From: Desulfocapsa sp.
Lineage (GTDB): Bacteria; Desulfobacterota; Desulfobulbia; Desulfobulbales; Desulfocapsaceae
Direction: 5' to 3'
NCBI GenBank assembly: GCA_029935135.1
Contig: JAOZKX010000025.1
Location: forward strand, 1-10,795
Length of the DNA: 10,795 bases
Made by a program: the position numbers and the translations under genes
Shown here: in pieces, positions 1-10,795 of the stretch
Numbering within the stretch: position 1 is the first letter of the stretch
Layout of the letters: every line of letters starts with the position of its first letter
The notes under the pieces: model-generated
Databases searched by the model: none
What the model saw: only the letters and a program-made list of their open reading frames with translations
Told to the model about the DNA's origin: nothing

Positions 1-590
1 CAAAGTTTAAACCCCTTGGCTTTCCTACCATTACTTTTCCTTGTGAGATCACCGATGATCCAATGCTGGAGGCAATGGTTGCCTCAGTGCTGATTGCAAA
101 ATATGCAGGTATTATCGTTCTCGGTGACCTCCAGGGTGATCTGATATTCCCGCTGTTTCTTGAGAGGATGAATATTTTTACTGATCCGCAGCGACCAATG
201 GTTGTGACCGAGGATATCTATCCGCTCACAGGGCCAGATGAGAATTCACCTGTTGTAATCACCTGTAACTTCTCTCTTACTTACTTTATTGTCTCCGGTG
301 AGATTGAAGGTTCCAAAGTGCCTACCTGGCTGCTTATTAAGGACACCGAGGGACTCTCTGTCCTTACGGCGTGGGCTGCTGGAAAATTCGGCGCAGATCT
401 TATTGCCCAGTTCGTGAAGAAGAATGGAATAGAAGAGAAGGTTAAGCATCGTGATATCATTATCCCAGGCTACCTTGCTTCCTTAAAAGGTGAGCTTGAA
501 GAAGAGCTTCCTGACTGGAATATCATCATTGGACCCCGTGAGGCAGGACATCTGCCGGTCTTCTTGAAAGAATGGAAACCATCCAAATAG
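1..590 (+). CDS. acsC: Corrinoid iron-sulfur protein large (gamma) subunit, C-terminal part (5' end outside window)
   Basis: The reading frame is open from base 3 and ends in TAG at 588-590, giving about 195 residues of a protein usually near 450 residues long. The N-terminal [4Fe-4S] domain and much of the TIM barrel lie upstream of the window. What remains matches the end of the AcsC/CdhE family as I know it: the stretches CNFSLTYFIVSGEIE, DTEGLSVLTAWAAGKF, HRDIIIPGYLA, GELEEELPDW and IGPREA are characteristic of its C-terminal corrinoid-binding domain. With the small subunit (AcsD), this cytoplasmic protein carries the methyl group from methyl-tetrahydrofolate/pterin to acetyl-CoA synthase in the Wood-Ljungdahl pathway. 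An ATG at 63-65 is internal, because conserved family sequence continues upstream of it in frame. The gene ends only 7 bases before fdhA, so the two are probably cotranscribed. The usual partner acsD does not follow directly. Confidence 0.9.
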   Translation, partial: KFKPLGFPTITFPCEITDDPMLEAMVASVLIAKYAGIIVLGDLQGDLIFPLFLERMNIFTDPQRPMVVTEDIYPLTGPDENSPVVITCNFSLTYFIVSGEIEGSKVPTWLLIKDTEGLSVLTAWAAGKFGADLIAQFVKKNGIEEKVKHRDIIIPGYLASLKGELEEELPDWNIIIGPREAGHLPVFLKEWKPSK

Positions 591-597
591 CATATAC

Positions 598-3500
598 ATG
601 AGCACTGTAACACTGAACATAAACGGAAATGAGGTTGTTGCCGAGGAAGGTCTGACCATCCTTGAGGTCGCTAAACGATCTGATATTGCAATTCCAACGC
701 TTTGTTTTGTCGAAGGAAAACCAACCGATAAGCCTTGTGGACTCTGTGTAGTGGAAGTGGAAGGTCAGGACGAACTTGTCTGTTCCTGTGATGCTCCCGC
801 AACCGATGGATTGGTCATTCAGACCGAATCGGAGGCGGTTGTTGCCCACAGGCAGGAACGACTTGCTCTTATTTCCGAGACTCATTTTGGTGATTGCAAA
901 GCTCCCTGTAATCTGACCTGTCCCGGCCAGATTAATGTCCAGGGCTATATTGCTCATGTTGCCCGTGGCGAATATGAAGAAGCGTTGCGGCTGGTTATGG
1001 AGCGCAACCCTGTACCTTTTTCTGTAGGGCGAGTCTGTCCCAGGTTTTGTGAGACCCGATGTCGCCGTATCCTTATCGATGAACCGGTTTCCATTAATCA
1101 TCTCAAACGCTTTGTCGCCGACTGGTGCATGAACCATGAGATTGACCTGAAGATTCCAAAGGATAAACCTACCGGTAAACGAATTGCTGTTATTGGTGGC
1201 GGCCCTGCCGGGCTTACTGCAGCATGGTTCCTGACCAGAAAGGGACATGATGTAACCATTTTTGAAGCGGCTCCCAAAATGGGTGGAGCCCTTCGTTATG
1301 GTTTCCCCGATTATAAAATTCCCAATGAAATTGTTGATTACGAGGTCAATACAATTCTCCGCATGGGGATTAATATTCGTCTTTCGCAAAAATGGGGGCA
1401 GGATTTTAATCTTCAGGATCTGAAAGATATGGGTTTTGATGCCACATTTATTGGTATAGGAGCAACAGTTGACCTGCCCTTTGATGTACCGTGTACCGAT
1501 AAAGAAAATGTCTATGCTGCCATAAAATTTCTCCGCATGGTCAATGAAGGTCGTGAGTTTGATCTTGGTCGCACTGCTGCAGTTTTCGGCGGGAACAATA
1601 CCGCCATGGAAGTTGCCAGATCTCTTGTTCGTCAGGGTGTTGAGCAGGTTACGGTTATCTATCCACGTGCCCGTCTGGAAATGCCCGCCAATCAGAGAAA
1701 TATCAGAGAAGCAGAAAAAGAAGGTGTTCAGTTCCTGCTTATGGCTTCAGCCGTTGGTCTGTGTGGTACACCTGACAAGAATCACCGCTTAAAGCTGGAT
1801 ATCATCAGGATGAAGCTTGGTGAGCCCGATAAGCGTGGAAAACGTGATATCCTGCCTATTCCTGAATCCACCAATACCTTGGGGGTGGATACTGTAATTG
1901 CCTCTCTTGGACAGATGGCAGTAGATGGAATGATGAGGGGGGGAGAACTCGAAGCGCAGCTCAAAATTAAACCATCCGGTATGTTTGATGCCAATCCTCG
2001 TACTGCATCTACCAGTGTGGAAGGTGTCTTTGCAGGCGGTGATGCTGCAACTGGTACCAAGTCAGTTATCCAGGCAGTTGTTTCAGCCAGAAGGGCGGCA
2101 GCTAACATCCACGCCTACATGATGGATTGTGAAAAAGAACCGGCTGATAACCGCTTTAATTTTCATCGAGGTCGATCATTTGATGATGTTTCCTTAAAAA
2201 ACTTTGATGGAATCGGGGTAAATCTGCGCGAAAAAATGCCCGAACGTCCGCCGGAGGTTTCCACCCAGGATTTTGATGAGGTAAAGCTGGGTTTTACAGA
2301 AAAAATGGCTCGCCGTGAGGCTGAACGCTGTCTTTCCTGCGGCTGTACCGCCTTTGAACGTTGCGACCTGAAACGCCTTGATATTGATTTTAATATCAAT
2401 ATTAACAAGACAGGCATGGGGTCTATTCCACAGTATCCCATTGATACCAGTCATCGGGCAATTATCGTTGATCGGAACAAGTGCATCTATTGTGGCCGAT
2501 GTGAACGATCCTGTGAATATGATGCCCTGGAAGTCAGCTCGAAAACCTTCGATGAGCAGGGCAGGCCCCTTGAACTTGTAATCGAATTTAAAGAGAACTG
2601 TGTCTCCTGCGGCAAGTGCGTGGAGAATTGTTCGACTGGAGCCTTGAACAAATGGAATCGTATCGTTCCCATACAATCTGAAGAGGTTCGTGAAGTAAGA
2701 ACGACCTGTCCGTATTGCGGAACCGGTTGTCAGATGATTCTAAAAGTGAAGGGTCATACCCTGATGGAGATTACGGCAGACCCTGAAGCAGGCCCTAATT
2801 ATGGTGATCTTTGTGTGAAGGGAAGATTTGGCCATAATTTTATTCAGCATCCAGACAGATTGACTACACCTCTTATCCGTCGACAAAAAGGTGGCATTCT
2901 TGAACCTGTGAAATGGGATGAGGCGCTTGATTTTATTGCCCAGTCCTTTTCAAAGATTGTTGGTGAAAAAGGCCCTGATGCACTGGCCGGGCTTTCTTCA
3001 GCCCGCTGCACCACTGAGGAAAATTACGCCTTTCAAAAATTCTTCAGGGCAGGGATAGGGACCAATAATGTTGACCACTGTGCCAGATACTGACACAGCC
3101 CAACGGTGACCGGTCTGGTCACAGTACTTGGTTCTGGCGCAATGACAAACACCATCAATGGTATCCTTGATTCTGATGTGATGCTTGTTATCGGCTCTAA
3201 TACCACAGAGACACATCCCATTATTGGCTTGCGAATGGTTAAGGCAGCCAGGAATGGTTCTAAACTTATTGTAGCAGATCCCAGGCGCATTAATCTTTGT
3301 GATTCTGCCGATACATGGATGCAGCAAAAGCCCGGCACTGATGGTGCCCTTATCAATGCACTCTGTCATGTGATTATCCGTGATGGTCTTGAAGACAGAC
3401 AGTACATCGAGGAGCGTGCTGAAAACTTTGAGGCCTTTAAGGAGTCTATTAAAAATTGTACTCCAGAGTGGGCTGAACAAATTACAAAAGTTCCGGCTGT

Positions 3501-4791
3501 TGATATAGAAAAAGTTGCTCATACCTTTGCCAAAGGGAAACGGGCAGGAATTTATTACACCATGGGAATTACCCAGCATACTTCTGGAACAGACAATGTC
3601 TGTGCCCTGGCCAACCTCTCCGTGATTACAGGGAATCTTGGTAAACCCGGTGCGGGACTGAATCCCCTGCGCGGTCAGAATAATGTGCAGGGAGCAAGTG
3701 ATATGGGATGTCTGCCTGTCTTTTTCCCTGGCTATCAACGAACTGACGATGCTGCTGCCGTAGAAAAATTCTCAAAAATATGGGATGCCCAGCTTTCTGA
3801 TACGCCTGGACTTATGGCAACAGAGATGCCGGATGCAATCACTGATGGGAAGCTTGCTGGATTATGGATTATGGGTGAAAACCCAGTTATCAGTGATCCC
3901 AATAGTGATCATGCCAAGCATGCTTTTGCCAAGCTTGAGTGTCTTGTTGTTCAGGATATCTTTTTGACTGAAACAGCAGAGCTTGCCGATGTTGTATTAC
4001 CGGCCGCTTCATTTGCAGAAAAAGATGGCACCTTTGCCAATACCGAGCGCAAAGTGCAGCGTGTCCGTCGTGCAGTTCCTCCTCCTGGAGATGCCTGTGA
4101 TGACCTTTCCATTGTCAATATGGTCAGCAATAGAATGCTCGGTACCAGAAGTCAGGGATATCAGGGGGCTGTTGATCCTTTATACTATACAGTACCTCCT
4201 TTTGCTGGCGAAGTATTCGATGAGATATGCACCTGCTGGCCTGCAATGGCAGGTATGAGCTATGAACGTATTGATGAGAAAGGAATTGCCTGGCCCTGTC
4301 CCGATAAGGATCATCCCGGTACCCCGATATTACATGTATCCGGTTTTCCACGTGGCAAGGCCTGGTTATCTGAGATTACCTGGAGTGGACCTGATGAACT
4401 TCCGGATGCTGAATATCCCCTTGTTCTAACGACTGGGCGCGTGTTGTATCAGTATCACACCGGTACCATGACCAGAAGGTCAAAGGTTCTGGAAGAGTCT
4501 GCCCCTTCGGCCTATGTGGAAATGCATTCTGAAGATGCCAAGGCCCTGTCCATAGAGGATGGTGAAATGGTCACAGCATCTTCCAGACGAGGCTCAATCC
4601 AGCTAGCTGCAAGAATTACGGATCGTACAAGCAAAGGTCTGGTTTTTATACCATTTCACTACAAAGAAGCCTCTGTTAATTTGTTGACAAATGACGCCCT
4701 TGATCCTAAATGCAAGATTGCAGAGGCAAAGGTTTGCGCCATTAAGATAGAGAAAATTCAACAGGACCCAGTTCCTGTTACATTGAATTAG
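598..4791 (+). CDS. fdhA: Selenocysteine-containing formate dehydrogenase alpha subunit fused to [2Fe-2S], GltD-like and ferredoxin domains
   Basis: This cytoplasmic enzyme would catalyse reversible formate oxidation to CO2; no Tat or Sec signal is visible. The gene reads as 1397 residues if TGA at 3091-3093 is decoded as selenocysteine (U832). Domains in order: a NuoG-type [2Fe-2S] domain (C36, C47, C50, C64); a GltD-type Cys region (C100, C104, C108, C147, C151, C155); an FAD fold with GGGPAG at 200-205; a second dinucleotide-binding fold near 327-343; the FAD-closing motif GVFAGGDAATG near 476-486; a Cys group (C578, C581, C583, C589); and two [4Fe-4S] ferredoxin motifs (C629-C639, C668-C678). 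The Mo/W-bis-PGD catalytic part starts at about 700 with a [4Fe-4S] site (C704, C707, C711, C739). U832 sits in CARY-U-HSPTVTGL, the metal ligand of formate dehydrogenases. A molybdopterin dinucleotide-binding domain occupies about 1272-1390. The start is the ATG 7 bases after acsC; no strong Shine-Dalgarno is visible, which suggests translational coupling. The true stop is TAG. The GltD part implies electron exchange with NAD(P)H. An alternative reading as two broken genes is unlikely because both halves join exactly at the Sec motif. Confidence 0.93.
3091..3122 (+). promoter_or_regulatory. Sec UGA codon and SECIS element of fdhA
   Basis: TGA at 3091-3093 is followed by a perfect 6-bp stem, GTGACC (3106-3111) with GGTCAC (3117-3122), closing a GGTCT loop (3112-3116). 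Eighteen bases separate the TGA from the loop. The Escherichia coli fdhF SECIS, as I remember it, has the same GGUCU loop at the same spacing, and SelB binds that loop. This strongly supports selenocysteine insertion at FdhA residue 832. Confidence 0.9.
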
Positions 4792-4824
4792 TTGTATTTA
4801 TAAATAATTACCCTGGAGATTGTA

Positions 4825-7800
4825 ATGGGAAAAGGAATGGAACATAGGGCTGGATCAGTCATGATTGTTGGTGGTGGTATCGCTGGCATTCAGGCCGCCC
4901 TGGATATGACCGAACTCGGTTATTATGTCTATCTGGTTGAAAAATCACCCGCGGTTGGTGGTGTTATGGCTCAGCTCGACAAGACCTTTCCAACCAATGA
5001 TTGTTCTCTCTGAATCCTGGCGCCAAAGCTGGTAGAGGCCGGTCGGTCTCCAAACATAGAGATGGTTACCAATGCTGATCTTCTTGCATTGGAAGGAACA
5101 CCTGGAAATTTCACCGCAAAACTGAATATTCGTCCCCGCTATATAGACGCTGATGCATGTACAGCCTGTGGACTGTGTACCCAGTACTGCCCCAAACATC
5201 ATGTGGATCCGTATAATGAAGGTCTGGCCATTACAAGACCCATCCACATCGATTATGCCCAGGCAGTGCCAGCAACATACTATATTGATCCTTCTTCTTG
5301 TATGTTTCTGCAGCACGATACCTGTCAGATCTGTGTCCCGGTCTGTCAAAGTCATGCCATTAATTTCAGCCAGAGACCCGAGGCTCGTGAACTCAAAATT
5401 GGTGCGGTTATTCTCTCACCAGGTTTTGGAAAGATAGCCCCGGAAACGCTGGAAAAATTTAGTTATGGAAAACATCCAGACATCGTCACCGCATTTGAGT
5501 ATGAACGGATGACCACTGCCTCCGGACCATTTCTGGGTGAGATCAAATGCTTTTCTGATGGTCGCCATCCAAAGTCCATGGCATTTATCCAGTGTGTTGG
5601 TTCAAGAGATATGGGTTGTGACAACGGCTACTGTTCCTCAGTCTGCTGTATGTATGCCATAAAAGAAGCACTGGTCACCAAAGAACATGATCCTGAAGTG
5701 GATATCACCATCTACTACATGGATATCCGTACCCAGGGCAAGGACTTTGATGCAGCAAGAGAACGTGCTGAGGCCATTGGCATAAAGTTTGTCCGTGCTA
5801 AAGTCGCTGATGTTACTCCCTGGGAGAATCATCTGAAACTGACCTATTCCACCCTTGATGGGCAGCATAAATTTGATTCCCATGATATGGTTATTCTTTC
5901 CGTGGGTCTCGAGTCTCCCAAAGATGCTGAAAAAATTGCTGATATTACAAAAATTGATCTAAATCGTTATAATTTTTGCAAGACTGCTACCTTTGAACCA
6001 CTGCAGACCAGTCAGGATGGAATCATCGTTGCCGGTGCCTTTCAGGGGCCAAAGGATATTCCGGAATCTGCAACCCAGTCATCTGGTGCCGCACTGCTTG
6101 CCGCCTCTGTGATGAAACAGCAAAGGGGTAAAGGGACTGTCAGTAAAGAGTATCCAGATGAACTGGTACTGAACGATAATGATGAGGTACGGATTGGTGT
6201 CTTTGTCTGTCATTGTGGTATCAATATCAGCTCTGTTGTCGATTGTCCCGGAGTTGCAGAAGAAGCCGGCGGCATGGAAAATGTCACCTATTATACAGAG
6301 AATCTCTACTCTTGTTCCCAGGATGCCCAGGAACAGATCAAGCAGACCATCAAAGATCAGAAACTTAATCGTGTGGTTATTGCTGCCTGTTCACCAAGAA
6401 CCCATGAGCCTCTTTTTCAGGAAACACTAAAAGATGCTGGGCTGAATAGAAATCTTTTTGAGATGGTAAATATTCGGGACCAATGTTCCTGGGTACATGC
6501 AAATGAACCGGAAGCCGCTACTCAGAAATCAAAAGACCTCGTTCGGATGGCTGTTGCAAAGGCTGCTCATATTCAGCCGCTTCCCGAGCAGACTGTTCCT
6601 GTAACAGCCAAGGCATTGATTATTGGTGGCGGAGTGGCAGGCATGACGGCTGCACTTTCTATAGCCGATCAGGGCTTTGAATCTGTTCTTATAGAGAAAT
6701 CTTCTAAGATTGGCGGGAATCTTCTTAATCTGAAAAACACCATTAATGGTGAAAAAATTTCTGATTATCTGAAAAAGCTCACTGCTAGGATTAATAAATC
6801 CAAATTGATCGATGTTGTCACCGATGCTGCTCTTGCCCAGACTTCTGGGTTTGTCGGGAATTTTTCCTCTGTCATTGAGTCTGGTAAGGGGAAGAAAAAG
6901 AAAGAACAGACCTTTGACCATGGTGTTATTGTTGTGGCCACTGGTGGACATGAGCATCGTCCTGATATGTACGAACTTGGTAAGTCGAAAAAGGTTGTGA
7001 CTCAGCAGGAGCTTGAAACAAAGCTTGCGGGTCGAGCCAAGAATCGTGCCCCGGACTCAATTGTTATGATCCAGTGTGCTGGTTCCCGTGGTGATGACCT
7101 GAACTACTGTTCCAAAGTTTGCTGTAACCATGCCATAAAGAATATTCTGAAGATAAAAGAGATCAACCCCGGTTCTCAGATTATTGTTTTATATCGTGAT
7201 ATCCGTACCTACGGTTTTGCCGAGGATGCATACCTTGAAGCACGAAAAAAAGGTGTTATCTTTATTCCTTACGAGATGGATCGTAAACCTGTTGTTACCA
7301 AGAAAGGGACGAAGGTTCAGGTGGATTTCTTTGATTCCATCATGCAGGAAGAAGTCAGCATGAGTCCTGATCTGGTTACTCTGTCTGTTGGTATTGTCCC
7401 TGATGGAACCGAAGAGCTGTCAAAGATGTTGAAATTACCGGTTACGGCCAATAATTTCTTCCTTGAAGCCCATGTTAAACTGCGCCCTGTGGAGGCAGCT
7501 GTGGAGGGAATTTATATCTGTGGTCTGGCCCATGCGCCAAAACCAGTAGATGAGACCATTGTTCAGGCCCAGGCTGCTGCAGCAAAAGCTTCAATGCCGC
7601 TTGTACAAGGATTTGTTAAGGTTGACCCCATTGTTTCCTCTGTTAACCAGGATGATTGTATAGGCTGTGGAATCTGTACCAGTCTTTGTCCCTATGGTGC
7701 AATTGTGATGAAAAAAGTAGGTAAGAAACGTAAAGCCGAAACGGTTTCCGCCTCCTGTAAGGCGTGTGGTATCTGTGCGTCTCGTTGTCCTACATTCGCC

Positions 7801-7890
7801 ATATCCATGGGTGGCTTTACCAATGAACAGCTTATTTCTCAGATTGAAGCCTTCGGTAATAACAAGGTGAAGGAAGAAGCTGCAGCCTAA
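4825..7890 (+). CDS. hdrA: Selenocysteine-containing HdrA-like flavoprotein with two HdrA/FAD modules
   Basis: HdrA-type proteins use FAD to bifurcate electrons between donors such as ferredoxin and NAD(P)H in cytoplasmic complexes. The gene gives 1021 residues when TGA at 5011-5013 is read as U63. Module 1 begins directly with the FAD motif [10 protein letters not shown] (from residue 16), followed by the HdrA signature [15 protein letters not shown] (C60, U63). A ferredoxin motif (C112, C115, C118, C122), a second Cys set (C159, C167, C170, C174) and a CVGSRD...CSSVCC motif (C257, C270, C274, C275) come next. Module 2 starts with the HdrA N-terminal domain (VCHCG, C462/C464), then a second FAD motif at about 600-613 and a second CAGSRG...CSKVCC set (C751, C762, C766, C767). 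Two C-terminal [4Fe-4S] motifs close the protein (C945-C955, C978-C988). Module 2 lacks the CSxC/U signature. Ordinary HdrA is about 650-ish residues, so this is a long, duplicated form. GGAG at 4815-4818 precedes ATG 4825 at good spacing, and the gene lies 33 bases after fdhA. The stop is TAA. Confidence 0.92.
5011..5050 (+). promoter_or_regulatory. Sec UGA codon and candidate SECIS element of hdrA
   Basis: TGA at 5011-5013 lies in the HdrA motif where family members have Cys or Sec. A hairpin GAGGCC (5035-5040) with GGTCTC (5045-5050), containing one G-U pair, closes a GGTC loop (5041-5044). The loop is 27 bases after the TGA, within the range described for bacterial SECIS elements but longer than in fdhA. 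A competing hairpin with loop 5033-5038 (stem 5028-5032 with 5039-5043) sits closer but has two G-U pairs and no GGU loop. The Sec call itself is firmer than the exact hairpin. Confidence 0.65.
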
Positions 7891-7893
7891 GTG

Positions 7894-7907
7894 ATTACAT
7901 TTGTAAT
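7894..7907. repeat. Small inverted repeat between hdrA and mvhD
   Basis: ATTACA (7894-7899) and TGTAAT (7902-7907) are perfect reverse complements separated by TT. They lie 3 bases after the hdrA stop and are followed by a T-rich tract. It could be a weak RNA hairpin that tunes mvhD expression or mRNA stability, or a chance palindrome in AT-rich sequence. It is too weak and AT-rich to call a terminator. Confidence 0.25.
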
Positions 7908-7938
7908 TTAATTGTTTTATTAGCAAAAAAAGATTTGC

Positions 7939-7942
7939 GGAG
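7939..7942 (+). promoter_or_regulatory. Shine-Dalgarno site deciding the mvhD start
   Basis: GGAG at 7939-7942 lies 7 bases before ATG at 7950. The frame also has a TTG at 7935, but that codon would lie upstream of this ribosome binding site and has none of its own. The ATG is therefore preferred. Confidence 0.75.
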
Positions 7943-7949
7943 AATAAAT

Positions 7950-8552
7950 ATGTCAGAAAATTCATTCAGCCCAAAAATTCTTGGGTTCCTCTGTAACTGG
8001 TGCTGTTATGCAGCAGCCGATGCGGCAGGGGTATCTCGCTTTCAATATCCTCCGAATATGCGAACTGTTCGGGTGATGTGTACCGGTAGGGTTGATCCTT
8101 CCTTTGTCCTAAAAGGATTCCTCGAAGGAGCCGACGGCATATTCACAGGCGGCTGACAACTTGGCGAATGCCATTACCAGGTTGGTAATTATGACGCGAT
8201 GGGAGTGAATGCACTGGTGAAAAAGGTGCTGACAGATGTTGGAATAAAAGAAGAACGATTCAGTTTGCAATGGGCATCTGCTGCAGAGGCTCCAAGGTTT
8301 GTCCAGTTAATTACTGAATTTACAGAGGAGATGAAAGAGCTTGGGCCCATTGGCCAGGCGGAAGGATTCTCCAAAGAGGAAGTTCAGGAGAGAGTTCAAA
8401 AAGCATTGGATGCTCTCTCCAGCCAGAAAGTCCGCATTAGTTTTGGCAATGCATCAAAGGCTGTTCGTAAAGATGGCATCTGGACAGCTGAACATATCGG
8501 TGGAATTATAAACACAAAGATGGAAAAATCATTGGCGATATTAAATAAATAA
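7950..8552 (+). CDS. mvhD: Selenocysteine-containing MvhD-like [2Fe-2S] electron-transfer protein
   Basis: MvhD-family proteins carry a [2Fe-2S] cluster and link a hydrogenase or formate dehydrogenase to HdrA. Reading TGA at 8154-8156 as U69 gives 200 residues. Seen in order: [16 protein letters not shown] (C15, C18, C19), CTGRVDP (C44), then [21 protein letters not shown] (U69, C74). The last motif is GC(x)xGxCHY in homologues with Cys, so Sec replaces a conserved, probably cluster-linked Cys. Downstream, [19 protein letters not shown] and KELGP are also typical of the family. Classic MvhD is about 140 residues; the extra C-terminal segment (from about residue 125) is charged and probably helical, and I cannot assign it a role. 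The gene lies 59 bases after hdrA, ends in TAA, and is the last gene before the terminator. It probably bridges FdhA and HdrA in one cytoplasmic complex. That partnership is inferred from gene order and family knowledge. Confidence 0.92.
8154..8189 (+). promoter_or_regulatory. Sec UGA codon and SECIS element of mvhD
   Basis: TGA at 8154-8156 is followed by a perfect 6-bp stem, ATTACC (8173-8178) with GGTAAT (8184-8189), around an AGGTT loop (8179-8183). The loop begins 22 bases after the TGA and contains the GGU typical of SelB-recognised loops. The frame continues on both sides of the codon within one conserved MvhD motif, which supports decoding as selenocysteine. Confidence 0.85.
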
Positions 8553-8579
8553 TGTCGACAATCAGATTGCTACCAGTAT

Positions 8580-8617
8580 AAAAAAAGCCCGTTCCTTTTA
8601 AGGAACGGGCTTTTTTT
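8580..8617. terminator. Bidirectional rho-independent terminator
   Basis: GCCCGTTCC (8587-8595) pairs with GGAACGGGC (8602-8610) across a TTTTAA loop. The stem is flanked by seven A (8580-8586) on the left and seven T (8611-8617) on the right. It therefore ends transcripts from both sides: the rightward mvhD operon and the leftward PilZ gene, which converge here. The 98 bases between the two stop codons hold nothing else that I can identify. Confidence 0.95.
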
Positions 8618-8650
8618 CTGTATTGTTTGCGGCGGTTACCCGTGCAAAGG

Positions 8651-8992
8651 CTATTTCTTATCTATTTTGAATTTATTTTTATAGACATAAAAGAGGGTCA
8701 GCCATTCCATTTTGTCTTTAAATTCGAGAGCCACTACATTATCGTTAAAACGAATAACTTTGGCACTGAGTTCATCTATCATAAGGTTACTGTTATTTCC
8801 TTCGATGGTAATAGAAAGATTACAACTACTGCCTGTATCTAAACGCGTGTCGGTTTTTATAGAAACTCCGGTGGCACTCAGGTCCTGAAGGATTCCTTGT
8901 ATTTTATTGTGCTTATCGTCTAAAATGCTTACTTTTGAAGCAAGAGTTAGGCGAGCAGTGGCACGCTTTTCGTCTTTACTGTTTATAAACAT
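8651..8992 (-). CDS. Small PilZ-domain protein (probable c-di-GMP receptor)
   Basis: This gene encodes 113 residues, about the size of a stand-alone PilZ domain. The two c-di-GMP binding elements are visible: an RxxxR motif (R10, R14 in KRATARL) and a DxSxxG motif (D37, S39, G42 in DLSATGVSI). VVALEF near residues 86-91 fits the closing strand of the fold. PilZ proteins bind cyclic di-GMP and usually act on motility, exopolysaccharide or adhesion targets in the cytoplasm. There is no signal peptide or membrane segment. On the minus strand, the start codon (8990-8992) is preceded by a GGGAG Shine-Dalgarno sequence at about 8 bases. The gene converges on the mvhD operon and diverges from the EF-hand-like gene, so its target cannot be read from context. 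Confidence 0.82.
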   Translation of the reverse strand: MFINSKDEKRATARLTLASKVSILDDKHNKIQGILQDLSATGVSIKTDTRLDTGSSCNLSITIEGNNSNLMIDELSAKVIRFNDNVVALEFKDKMEWLTLFYVYKNKFKIDKK

Positions 8993-9273: not shown

Positions 9274-10359
9274 ATGAAAATTTCAGATTCTTCCATCTTG
9301 TTTCTCTCAGACAGATCTTTTCTCGCTAAACATACAAAAATTGAAAATCTCACCGTCTGGGGAGCAGGAGAAGAACCTCTGCTTCGCACTGACACCAATG
9401 GACTAGGGAGACAGATTGATGTGCAGAAGCATATTGCACTGCTCAGTAAATCCACTACAGTTGCCTTTTCAGAGAAGATTGTGAGAAATCGACCTGTGAA
9501 GGCAGTAGCGGAACCGATTCCTGCCGATCAGGAACTGATGGCAGATCTCAATATAAGGATCTTAAAGGCCATGGTAGAACGGCTAACTGGAAAACAAATC
9601 CAAATCCATACGCCAAATCAAGTTCAAGACACAGCAACAAAACCAGTTTCTGCAACGATTGAACATCCTGAGAGTGAAAGAGAAGCACCTTCTGCAGGAG
9701 GGTTGGTTTACGATTACTATGAATCTCATTATGAATATGAATCTACTAATTTTTCCTCATCAGGAAAGATCATCACCGAAGATGGTATGGAGATTGATTT
9801 TACAGTATCCTTACAGATGTCGCGTGAATTTTTCACAGAAGAACAACTTACAATTCGTGCTGGCGATGCATTAAAAGATCCTCTGGTGATCAATTTTTCC
9901 GGGAAGGCGGCGGAACTCTCTGAGAGAAAGTTTTCTTTTGATATTGATATGGATGGCAGGGAAAACCAGATCTCTTTCCTGCAGCCTGGCAGTGGTTTCC
10001 TGGCGCTGGATAAAAACAATGATCAGACAATTAATAACGGCTCTGAGCTTTTTGGACCTGAAAGCGGAAATGGTTTCAAAGATCTTGCCGCATATGACCT
10101 GGATGAGAATAACTGGATAGATGAAAATGATGCCATTTATGACAATTTACGAATTTGGGTCAAGGATGCAGATGGTAATGATAGCCTCTTTGCCCTGGGA
10201 GAAAAAGGCATAGGAGCCATATACCTCAATTCAGCAGCAACGCTTTTTTCGCTGAAGGACAGTGATAATACTCTGCAGGGGCAGGTTCAATCCACCTCTC
10301 TTTTTGTAAGACAAGATGGTGGCGTGGGGACTGTTCAGCAAGTTGATCTGGTTGCCTGA
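9274..10359 (+). CDS. Conserved protein with EF-hand-like Asp-rich calcium-binding region
   Basis: The product has 361 residues. I recognise the C-terminal half as a recurring uncharacterised proteobacterial type, but I know no established function. Residues 1-140 are variable-looking and rich in polar and charged residues. A likely beta-rich segment covers about 163-215. Four Asp/Asn-rich loops follow: D223-D227 (DIDMDG), D246-E258 (DKNNDQTINNGSE), D275-D286 (DLDENNWIDEND) and D298-D303 (DADGND). The second and third resemble EF-hand loops (DxNxD/DxDxN with I at position 8), so Ca2+ binding is likely. The end, VGTVQQVDLVA, appears conserved in such proteins. There is no N-terminal signal peptide or transmembrane segment, so if it is exported it would need another route such as type I secretion. 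A perfect AGGAGG at 9261-9266 lies 7 bases before the ATG. The gene stops with TGA, 11 bases short of the convergent transglycosylase gene. Confidence 0.7.
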   Translation: MKISDSSILFLSDRSFLAKHTKIENLTVWGAGEEPLLRTDTNGLGRQIDVQKHIALLSKSTTVAFSEKIVRNRPVKAVAEPIPADQELMADLNIRILKAMVERLTGKQIQIHTPNQVQDTATKPVSATIEHPESEREAPSAGGLVYDYYESHYEYESTNFSSSGKIITEDGMEIDFTVSLQMSREFFTEEQLTIRAGDALKDPLVINFSGKAAELSERKFSFDIDMDGRENQISFLQPGSGFLALDKNNDQTINNGSELFGPESGNGFKDLAAYDLDENNWIDENDAIYDNLRIWVKDADGNDSLFALGEKGIGAIYLNSAATLFSLKDSDNTLQGQVQSTSLFVRQDGGVGTVQQVDLVA

Positions 10360-10370
10360 GTAGGAGTTTC

Positions 10371-10795
10371 TTATTGCTTGTAGGACTTCTCTCGTTTGCG
10401 CAGGAGGTCGATATAGTAACTGTTTACCTTTCCAATCAAATTAATTGTCTCCGGGTAGGGAGCGTGCTTTCCTCTGTGGAGTATTGCAAGGTTCTCGCCG
10501 GCGTTCCAGGCTGACAGCACAAGCTCCAGTCTGCCATCAAATTTATAGTTATATTTTGATATAAGATAGCAGGTGAGGAGAATATTGATGGCCGGATCAA
10601 AAAGATCTTCTTCTTTTAAATTGGCCAGCTTGTTTTTGGGTACAGAGTGAAAACGATACTTTGAGCGGGAAAGTTCTTTTGCCGCTTGTTTACCAGTGGA
10701 ATATATAATTTGTCCGAGTCCTTTGGCACCTTTATGGGAGACGGCACGGGGATCAGCATTTGATTCAGCAAGAATAAGTGCGCGAATAAAATCCG
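10371..10795 (-). CDS. Lytic transglycosylase (SLT-domain), C-terminal part; 5' end outside window
   Basis: On the minus strand an open frame enters from the right edge (first full codon 10791-10793) and stops at TAA (10371-10373), giving 140 residues. No start codon is inside the window. The visible start ALILAESNADPRAVSH followed by KGAKGLGQI is the SLT catalytic motif of family 1-type lytic murein transglycosylases. The Glu at the tenth visible residue is the expected catalytic acid. FDPAINILLTCYLISK and LSAWNAGENLA match the later helices of the fold (DPxxNI...AWNAG). The second part of the motif usually reads GLMQ; here it is GLGQ. The enzyme would cleave peptidoglycan in the periplasm, and its signal peptide would lie outside the window. 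It converges with the EF-hand-like gene, 11 bases apart, and no terminator hairpin is evident between them. Confidence 0.85.
   Translation of the reverse strand, partial: DFIRALILAESNADPRAVSHKGAKGLGQIIYSTGKQAAKELSRSKYRFHSVPKNKLANLKEEDLFDPAINILLTCYLISKYNYKFDGRLELVLSAWNAGENLAILHRGKHAPYPETINLIGKVNSYYIDLLRKREKSYKQ

Follow-up and report, generated by a model that had tools for sequence, protein, structure and literature searches.

Do three consecutive genes of one redox operon each encode a selenoprotein, or are the TGA codons inside them ordinary stops? The question is raised by a 10,795-nucleotide (nt) stretch of Desulfocapsa sp. (GCA_029935135.1, contig JAOZKX010000025.1, forward strand), called the window here and taken at its full length, in which fdhA, hdrA and mvhD follow one another, each with a single in-frame TGA. 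An earlier note on this DNA had proposed that three selenoprotein genes stand side by side in a single redox operon, and relatives, hairpins and selenocysteine (Sec) machinery all agree with that proposal. We read the three genes as selenoproteins because the TGA codons are conserved in relatives, the hairpins behind them either covary or are frozen, and Sec machinery is present; Sec is almost certainly the residue at all three sites. The features that carry this reading, including hairpins of the bacterial Sec insertion sequence (bSECIS) type, are as follows.

598..4791, plus strand: fdhA, 1397 amino acids with one predicted Sec (U832), ends in TAG
3091..3093, plus strand: predicted FdhA Sec codon TGA, residue 832, motif HCARYUHSP
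3106..3122, plus strand: FdhA bSECIS-type hairpin GTGACC-GGTCT-GGTCAC, with covariation
4825..7890, plus strand: hdrA, HdrA/HdrL-like, 1021 amino acids with one predicted Sec (U63), ends in TAA
5011..5013, plus strand: predicted HdrA Sec codon TGA, residue 63, motif NDCSLUIL, aligned to Cys197 of 5odc_A in an ungapped alignment
5035..5050, plus strand: HdrA bSECIS-type hairpin GAGGCC-GGTC-GGTCTC, near-invariant stem and synonymous constraint
7950..8552, plus strand: mvhD/flpD, 200 amino acids with one predicted Sec (U69), ends in TAA
8154..8156, plus strand: predicted MvhD Sec codon TGA, residue 69, motif GGUQLGECHY, aligned to Cys67 of 5odc_D
8173..8189, plus strand: MvhD bSECIS-type hairpin ATTACC-AGGTT-GGTAAT, near-invariant stem and synonymous constraint

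The three TGA codons were found in frame and in conserved motifs, as the earlier note had it, and each stands at a position where homologs carry cysteine (Cys), including those in the solved chains 5odc_A, 5odc_D and 7qv7_S. After the TGA, 565 (FdhA), 958 (HdrA) and 131 (MvhD) codons follow without a stop, and the frame continues in the same family, with protein identity to relatives persisting downstream of each site. A standard-code listing of open reading frames (ORFs) splits each of the three genes, which is what true stops or sequencing errors in broken genes would produce. We give that explanation only the faintest chance, since the same TGA codons recur in other assemblies (33 of the 34 loci with three readable sites), protein identity runs on past them, and the synonymous sites just downstream are constrained.

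The relatives used for comparison were 80 loci encoding an HdrA relative, the best 80 of at least 565 candidates; many of them are related to one another, so they are not independent. The codon counts took in only FdhA matches of 45% identity or more, which removes a single TGT match, on the minus strand of L016 at 23%. The best HdrA and MvhD match per locus was taken, so that a second copy, for example the one with TGA in L091, went uncounted here but was included in the hairpin alignment. Loci without a readable site, numbering 44 for FdhA, 2 for HdrA and 10 for MvhD out of 80, were excluded. TGA occupies the FdhA site in 35/36 readable loci (TGT in the remaining one), the HdrA site in 75/78 (Cys in 3) and the MvhD site in 66/70 (Cys in 4). 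All three sites are readable in 34 loci, and 33 of these are TGA-TGA-TGA; the exception, L059, is TGT-TGA-TGA. The gene order fdhA-hdrA-mvhD is kept in 33/33 triple-TGA loci. MvhD was further searched for in 257 genomes of the window's order, with the best 150 rows retained: among the matches listed, all 140 at 58% identity or more, from 139 genomes, carry a single TGA, accompanied in one case by a TAA, and the 10 others, at 52-54% identity, lack it. The remaining genomes gave only weaker MvhD matches, so not every genome of the order has a close MvhD.

Each TGA is followed by a hairpin with a GGU-containing loop, as had been claimed; the loops GGUCU (FdhA), GGUC (HdrA) and AGGUU (MvhD) begin 19, 28 and 23 nt past the UGA. 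Several observations count against these hairpins. In the single sequence their strength is ordinary and too weak to decide the matter: when a G is required in the first two loop bases, an equal or stabler hairpin follows 22 of 1377 codons in FdhA, 8 of 1001 in HdrA and 23 of 180 in MvhD, the site itself included, and when GGU is required, an equal or better one follows 8/1377, 8/1001 and 7/180 codons, counted in the same way. Folded at minimum energy, the MvhD stretch favours another hairpin, and the MvhD stem also pairs in Cys homologs (40/54 cells in 9 homologs). The FdhA stem has one pair, of its six, that does not form in 13/31 sequences, and at least as many pair types arise in 27 of 500 shuffles. 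The weight of the case for the hairpins lies in the comparison with relatives.

That comparison gives two kinds of evidence. Across 31 distinct sequences of the FdhA hairpin, 93.0% of pair cells are paired as against a shuffled mean of 87.7 (reached by 0/500 shuffles), 3 of the 6 pairs change on both sides as against a shuffled mean of 1.0 (reached by 1/500), and 10 cells have changes on both sides (reached by 0/500); sliding the partner strand lowers the pairing to 17-51%. In HdrA, 409/426 pair cells are kept among 71 distinct TGA sequences versus 17/48 in 8 Cys homologs, codons +8 to +12 hardly vary (identical codon in 89-100%), and the hairpin is the top of 996 windows for synonymous constraint. 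The MvhD hairpin keeps 391/396 pair cells in 66 distinct TGA sequences; a G stands in the first two loop bases of 65/66 TGA rows, the exception being shifted by an N, versus 0/9 Cys rows, and the hairpin is again the top window, here of 192. For FdhA the windows at the site rank 2nd-4th of 973 in synonymous constraint, the first lying 252 codons upstream. The HdrA and MvhD hairpins, being nearly invariant, point to constraint and not covariation, and the FdhA hairpin is the one that covaries in the aligned sequences.

The Sec machinery was sought in the window's draft genome (2.6 Mb in 497 contigs, 72.6% complete). It contains a tRNA-Sec gene (selC; 72 bits against a cut-off of 47) with anticodon TCA (UCA), and a full-length selD match (L012) on contig C279. 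This selD match itself holds an in-frame TGA; Sec-containing SelD is known. To be set against the reading is that selA and selB are present only as pieces: selB is cut off after its first 131 codons by the end of contig C288, and at most the last 80 codons of selA enter from the end of contig C136, both pieces scoring below the family cut-offs. In the genus, selB is above its cut-off in 15/20 genomes. The earlier note had named absence of the sel genes among the findings that would refute it; selC and selD were recovered, selA and selB only as these contig-end fragments, and absence was not what we saw.

Two other readings of the TGA codons bear on this. A genome-wide reassignment of TGA, for example to Trp, has a negligible chance, nothing in its favour having been found, though no genome-wide test was made: the window's ORF 9274-10359 and, as we read it, the genome's second fdhA terminate in TGA, the TGA codons of the three genes stand only where homologs have Cys, and tRNA-Sec and selD are present. 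Selenium-dependent truncation is a general property of UGA recoding, and the codons might also act as a selenium-responsive switch yielding short products when selenium is scarce. Nothing found here pointed to it, and we regard this as improbable, as truncation would cost FdhA most of its catalytic domain and HdrA nearly its whole length. The reading frames, TGA conservation, hairpins, Sec machinery (selA and selB in part), operon context and domain make-up come directly from sequence. What we infer is Sec insertion, in which SelB with Sec-tRNA(UCA) would read each internal UGA as Sec, guided by the hairpin whose GGU loop lies 19-28 nt downstream.

Does it follow that the whole electron path depends on selenium, as the earlier note had concluded? 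This was overstated, for the relatives mix Sec and Cys. L059 has TGT at its FdhA site (L059:8229) with the downstream hairpin intact and TGA in HdrA and MvhD. In L084 and L088, which are more distant (HdrA 54% and 48% identical), an HdrA TGA goes with an MvhD TGT, and L081 has Cys in both HdrA and MvhD. These four loci rule out all-or-none use of selenium in the operon, and full selenium dependence of the path is a description of most loci, no rule of chemistry. In the FdhA tree L059 is sister to L048, which has TGA (100/100), and L086, also TGA, adjoins the pair (100/100). Because its nearest neighbors retain TGA, the FdhA of L059 probably represents a recent Sec-to-Cys change that left a fossil SECIS behind.

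The HdrA and FdhA trees, each built from 34 loci and the window, conflict. L018 groups with the window in the HdrA tree (100/99) and with the other lineage in the FdhA tree (96/99), and L055 and L056 are HdrA sisters (100/100), yet belong to different FdhA lineages. Both FdhA lineages have the TGA and the hairpin, and one genome of the genus (G113) has both, one adjoining hdrA and one elsewhere. The plain reading of these trees would be that FdhA has been exchanged in place, one Sec-FdhA for another, at least twice; old FdhA duplicates retained differently would look similar.

The gene layout suggests to which pathway the three genes belong. fdhA starts 7 bases past the end of acsC, the intergenic gaps that follow measure 33 and 59 bases, and two further features border the three genes.

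3..590, plus strand: 3' part of acsC/cdhE (gamma subunit of carbon monoxide dehydrogenase/acetyl-CoA synthase, CODH/ACS), truncated by the contig start, ends in TAG
8580..8617, plus strand: intrinsic-terminator-like hairpin 3' of mvhD, 17 pairs and a T run

The acsC piece matches PF03599 with 148.1 bits and NF003195 with 276.9 bits, at model positions 256-449 of 450. The gene is full-length in the relatives L016 and L052, where the three ORFs upstream of fdhA match CODH/ACS delta, alpha/beta and gamma. Because the gamma subunit precedes fdhA in the window, and delta, alpha/beta and gamma precede it in these two relatives, fdhA-hdrA-mvhD most likely forms the end of a Wood-Ljungdahl (CODH/ACS) operon, as judged from gene order. 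A search of 8500-8700 gave one terminator-like hairpin, where shuffled sequences gave 0.1 on average. The statement that the operon genes end only in TAG or TAA, never TGA, proved correct, the acsC piece included.

The gene scan covered 7 window ORFs. Among them there was no HdrB or HdrC, neither of which was searched for in the draft genome, and no hydrogenase gene FrhA or FrhG. Nor was a BfuB/BfuC-like gene found among these 7, the scan outside the window covering only three ORFs upstream in L016 and three in L052. An Rfam scan of the window at gathering cut-offs gave no matches. ORF 9274-10359 (361 amino acids) is without a Pfam or NCBIfam match; it is flanked by a PilZ-domain gene (8651-8992, minus strand) and an ORF with a lytic-transglycosylase domain (10371-10793, minus strand).

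FdhA passes the Fdh-alpha model TIGR01591 (803.7 bits, cut-off 666.25), and Sec as a molybdenum/tungsten (Mo/W) ligand is established for this family. Ahead of the catalytic (molybdopterin) domain it carries 2Fe-2S, Fer4_20, GltD-type FAD/NAD(P) and two-cluster ferredoxin domains, the models matched being PF07992, PF14691, PF13510 and PF12838. Its best PDB match is 7qv7_S, the FdhF of hydrogen-dependent CO2 reductase, with Cys at the Sec position. Residues 1-1039, 3-1038 and 4-750 align with PDB chains 8oh5_C, 9bov_A and 9n5u_A (2Fe-2S, GltD and ferredoxin parts), which we take to be chains of Stn, Bfu and Nfn-type bifurcating enzymes; 9n5u_A carries the name NfnA. The window FdhA differs from them in its catalytic domain, which passes the Fdh-alpha cut-off and has the predicted Sec. 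The Bfu family (PMC9304861, in its accessible part) also differs in its BfuBC core, for which no gene turned up among the 7 window ORFs scanned. The genome holds a second, shorter formate dehydrogenase (L132, C225:6072-8129) with one Sec site, then GGTCT; its further TGA codons read as the stop and as sequence beyond it. Second fdhA genes with several Sec (three TGA in G000, two in some relatives) were considered and rejected: L132, L133 and L134 are read as having one Sec site and C-terminal TGA stops.

HdrA aligns to the methanogen HdrA 5odc_A in three pieces (E-value 8.6e-190) and carries the FAD domain twice. Against a plain HdrA2 assignment, it scores 952.2 bits in 3 stretches with NF040770 (HdrA2), under the cut-off of 1100, and because of this we call the protein HdrA/HdrL-like; MvhD, a separate gene, aligns with the final part of that model. 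MvhD itself passes the PF02662 gathering cut-off (167.9 bits against 22.3). Eight of the relative loci (L061, L065, L067, L068, L087, L089, L091 and L092) have two HdrA matches covering the Sec site, one with TGA and one with Cys in 6/8, and L061, L065, L067, L068 and L087 also have a GltD-like match. The HdrA matches of two relatives in the genus, G100:C45 and G110:C34, have an extra internal stop (one TAA; two TGA).

What might the three proteins do together? Taken as a whole, the window very probably holds the three-selenoprotein end of a CODH/ACS operon, encoding most likely a soluble CO2 reductase/formate dehydrogenase. That FdhA, HdrA and MvhD act as a joint enzyme is, on gene order and domains, a view to which we lean with some reserve. 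From the gene order, the domain make-up, the neighboring CODH/ACS genes and the methanogen complexes of known structure we infer a complex linked to NAD(P)H and ferredoxin, with its electron route and direction. In such an enzyme the Mo/W site of FdhA, with its Sec ligand, would exchange electrons with two partners: through an Fe-S chain with the protein's own GltD-type NAD(P)H/FAD site, and with HdrA by way of MvhD. HdrA in turn would communicate with ferredoxin through its FAD and clusters. NAD(P)H and ferredoxin together could then reduce CO2 to formate for the methyl branch. The earlier note had drawn a path from formate through a [2Fe-2S] link to the flavin subunit HdrA; this part may stand but is incomplete: FdhA carries its own 2Fe-2S, Fer4_20 and GltD-type FAD/NAD(P) domains, the last of which the note had missed, so that formate-to-HdrA would not be the only route. 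Since CODH/ACS gamma precedes fdhA, the direction of CO2 reduction appears no less likely than that of formate oxidation.

The three could instead be selenoproteins without a joint enzyme, FdhA with its GltD part acting by itself as a formate dehydrogenase linked to NAD(P), and HdrA-MvhD serving another partner, for example DsrC. The NAD(P)H/FAD domain of FdhA suits this, as do the 30/80 loci with HdrA and MvhD TGA and no readable FdhA site (some being short contigs or holding FdhA pieces), and the authors of the Desulfurivibrio dismutans AMeS2 study propose that electrons pass from DsrC through HdrA to FdhAB (PMC12142623, accessible text). We consider it possible, though rather unlikely, in view of the order fdhA-hdrA-mvhD in 33/33 triple-TGA loci, the slot that holds an FdhA of either lineage beside much the same HdrA, and the solved PDB entries 7bkb and 9t1s, each of which contains homologs of FdhA, HdrA and MvhD together. 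Going further with the joint enzyme, we suggest tentatively a Wood-Ljungdahl CO2-reducing complex with three Sec and without HdrB/HdrC, confurcating NAD(P)H and ferredoxin, whose FdhA slot may be filled by either of two Sec lineages. Selection might then retain selenium at several points of the path despite exchange of the catalytic gene.

Related systems are known, and the papers are cited here from their accessible parts. D. dismutans AMeS2 has an fdhAB-hdrA/hdrL-mvhD cluster with similar expression across the whole cluster, and in the published model HdrA hands the DsrC electrons to FdhAB, directly or via NAD(P)H, for CO2 reduction (PMC12142623). Like the window, this strain has the three genes in the same order, an FdhA to which NAD(P)H/FAD and ferredoxin domains are fused, Wood-Ljungdahl neighbors and an HdrA with two NADH/FAD-binding domains (PMC12142623), and its locus L056 has TGA at all three sites. 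It differs from the window in carrying an FdhA of the other lineage, 54% identical to the window FdhA. The term "seleno" occurs 0 times in the main text of PMC12142623.

The earlier note was also right, as far as these sources reach, that Sec forms of FdhA, HdrA and MvhD are known in Desulfobacterota. Desulfobacterium autotrophicum HRM2 has Sec-containing fdhA, hdrA, hdrL and mvhD genes, with mvhD after nearly every hdrA/hdrL (PMC2702500). Like the window it has Sec in all these families, and two such loci also hold fdhB then fdhA, which, unlike in the window, are separate (PMC2702500). Desulfococcus multivorans has Sec HdrA, MvhD and FdhA genes with locus numbers far apart (PMC5109826). A multi-selenoprotein operon hdrA-frhD-frhG-frhA (+glpC) is known (PMC1794560; review PMC13188914), which resembles the window in having several selenoproteins, including Sec-HdrA and Sec-FrhD (MvhD family), but has the hydrogenase FrhA as catalytic subunit where the window has a formate dehydrogenase. 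The accessible operon section of that review does not include fdhA-hdrA-mvhD.

Deep-sea Chloroflexi single cells carry HdrBCA-MvhD-FdhBA, compared with Desulfobacula toluolica, which is like the window in joining a formate dehydrogenase, with Sec-containing FdhA, to HdrA and MvhD (PMC5736913); the methanogen structures 7bkb and 9t1s likewise bring formate dehydrogenase together with HdrA and MvhD. Unlike all of these, the window ORFs include no HdrB/HdrC, and the window FdhA is a GltD fusion. For Candidatus Desulfobulbus rimicarensis DR15, Wood-Ljungdahl fixation, selenocysteine biosynthesis and a selenium-form formate dehydrogenase are named (PMC7117923); its locus L030, like the window, has TGA at all three sites, and the accessible part of the paper makes no mention of Sec in HdrA or MvhD. 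The accessible parts of PMC9469722 and PMC5539420 contain nothing on an fdhA-hdrA-mvhD selenoprotein triple. In the open literature, as far as its text is accessible and with subscription papers mostly outside its scope, we found no description of fdhA-hdrA-mvhD as a selenoprotein triple within a Wood-Ljungdahl cluster. For each of the three families Sec forms are already known, as are clusters of such genes, and the triple within a carbon-fixation cluster is a modest new example.

If the reading is true, autotrophic CO2 fixation in many Desulfocapsa-/Desulfurivibrio-like bacteria would be tied to selenium at three points of one operon. The published, expressed cluster of D. dismutans AMeS2 is indicated to consist of selenoprotein genes, and this cultured strain offers three Sec sites at which insertion could be tested simultaneously.

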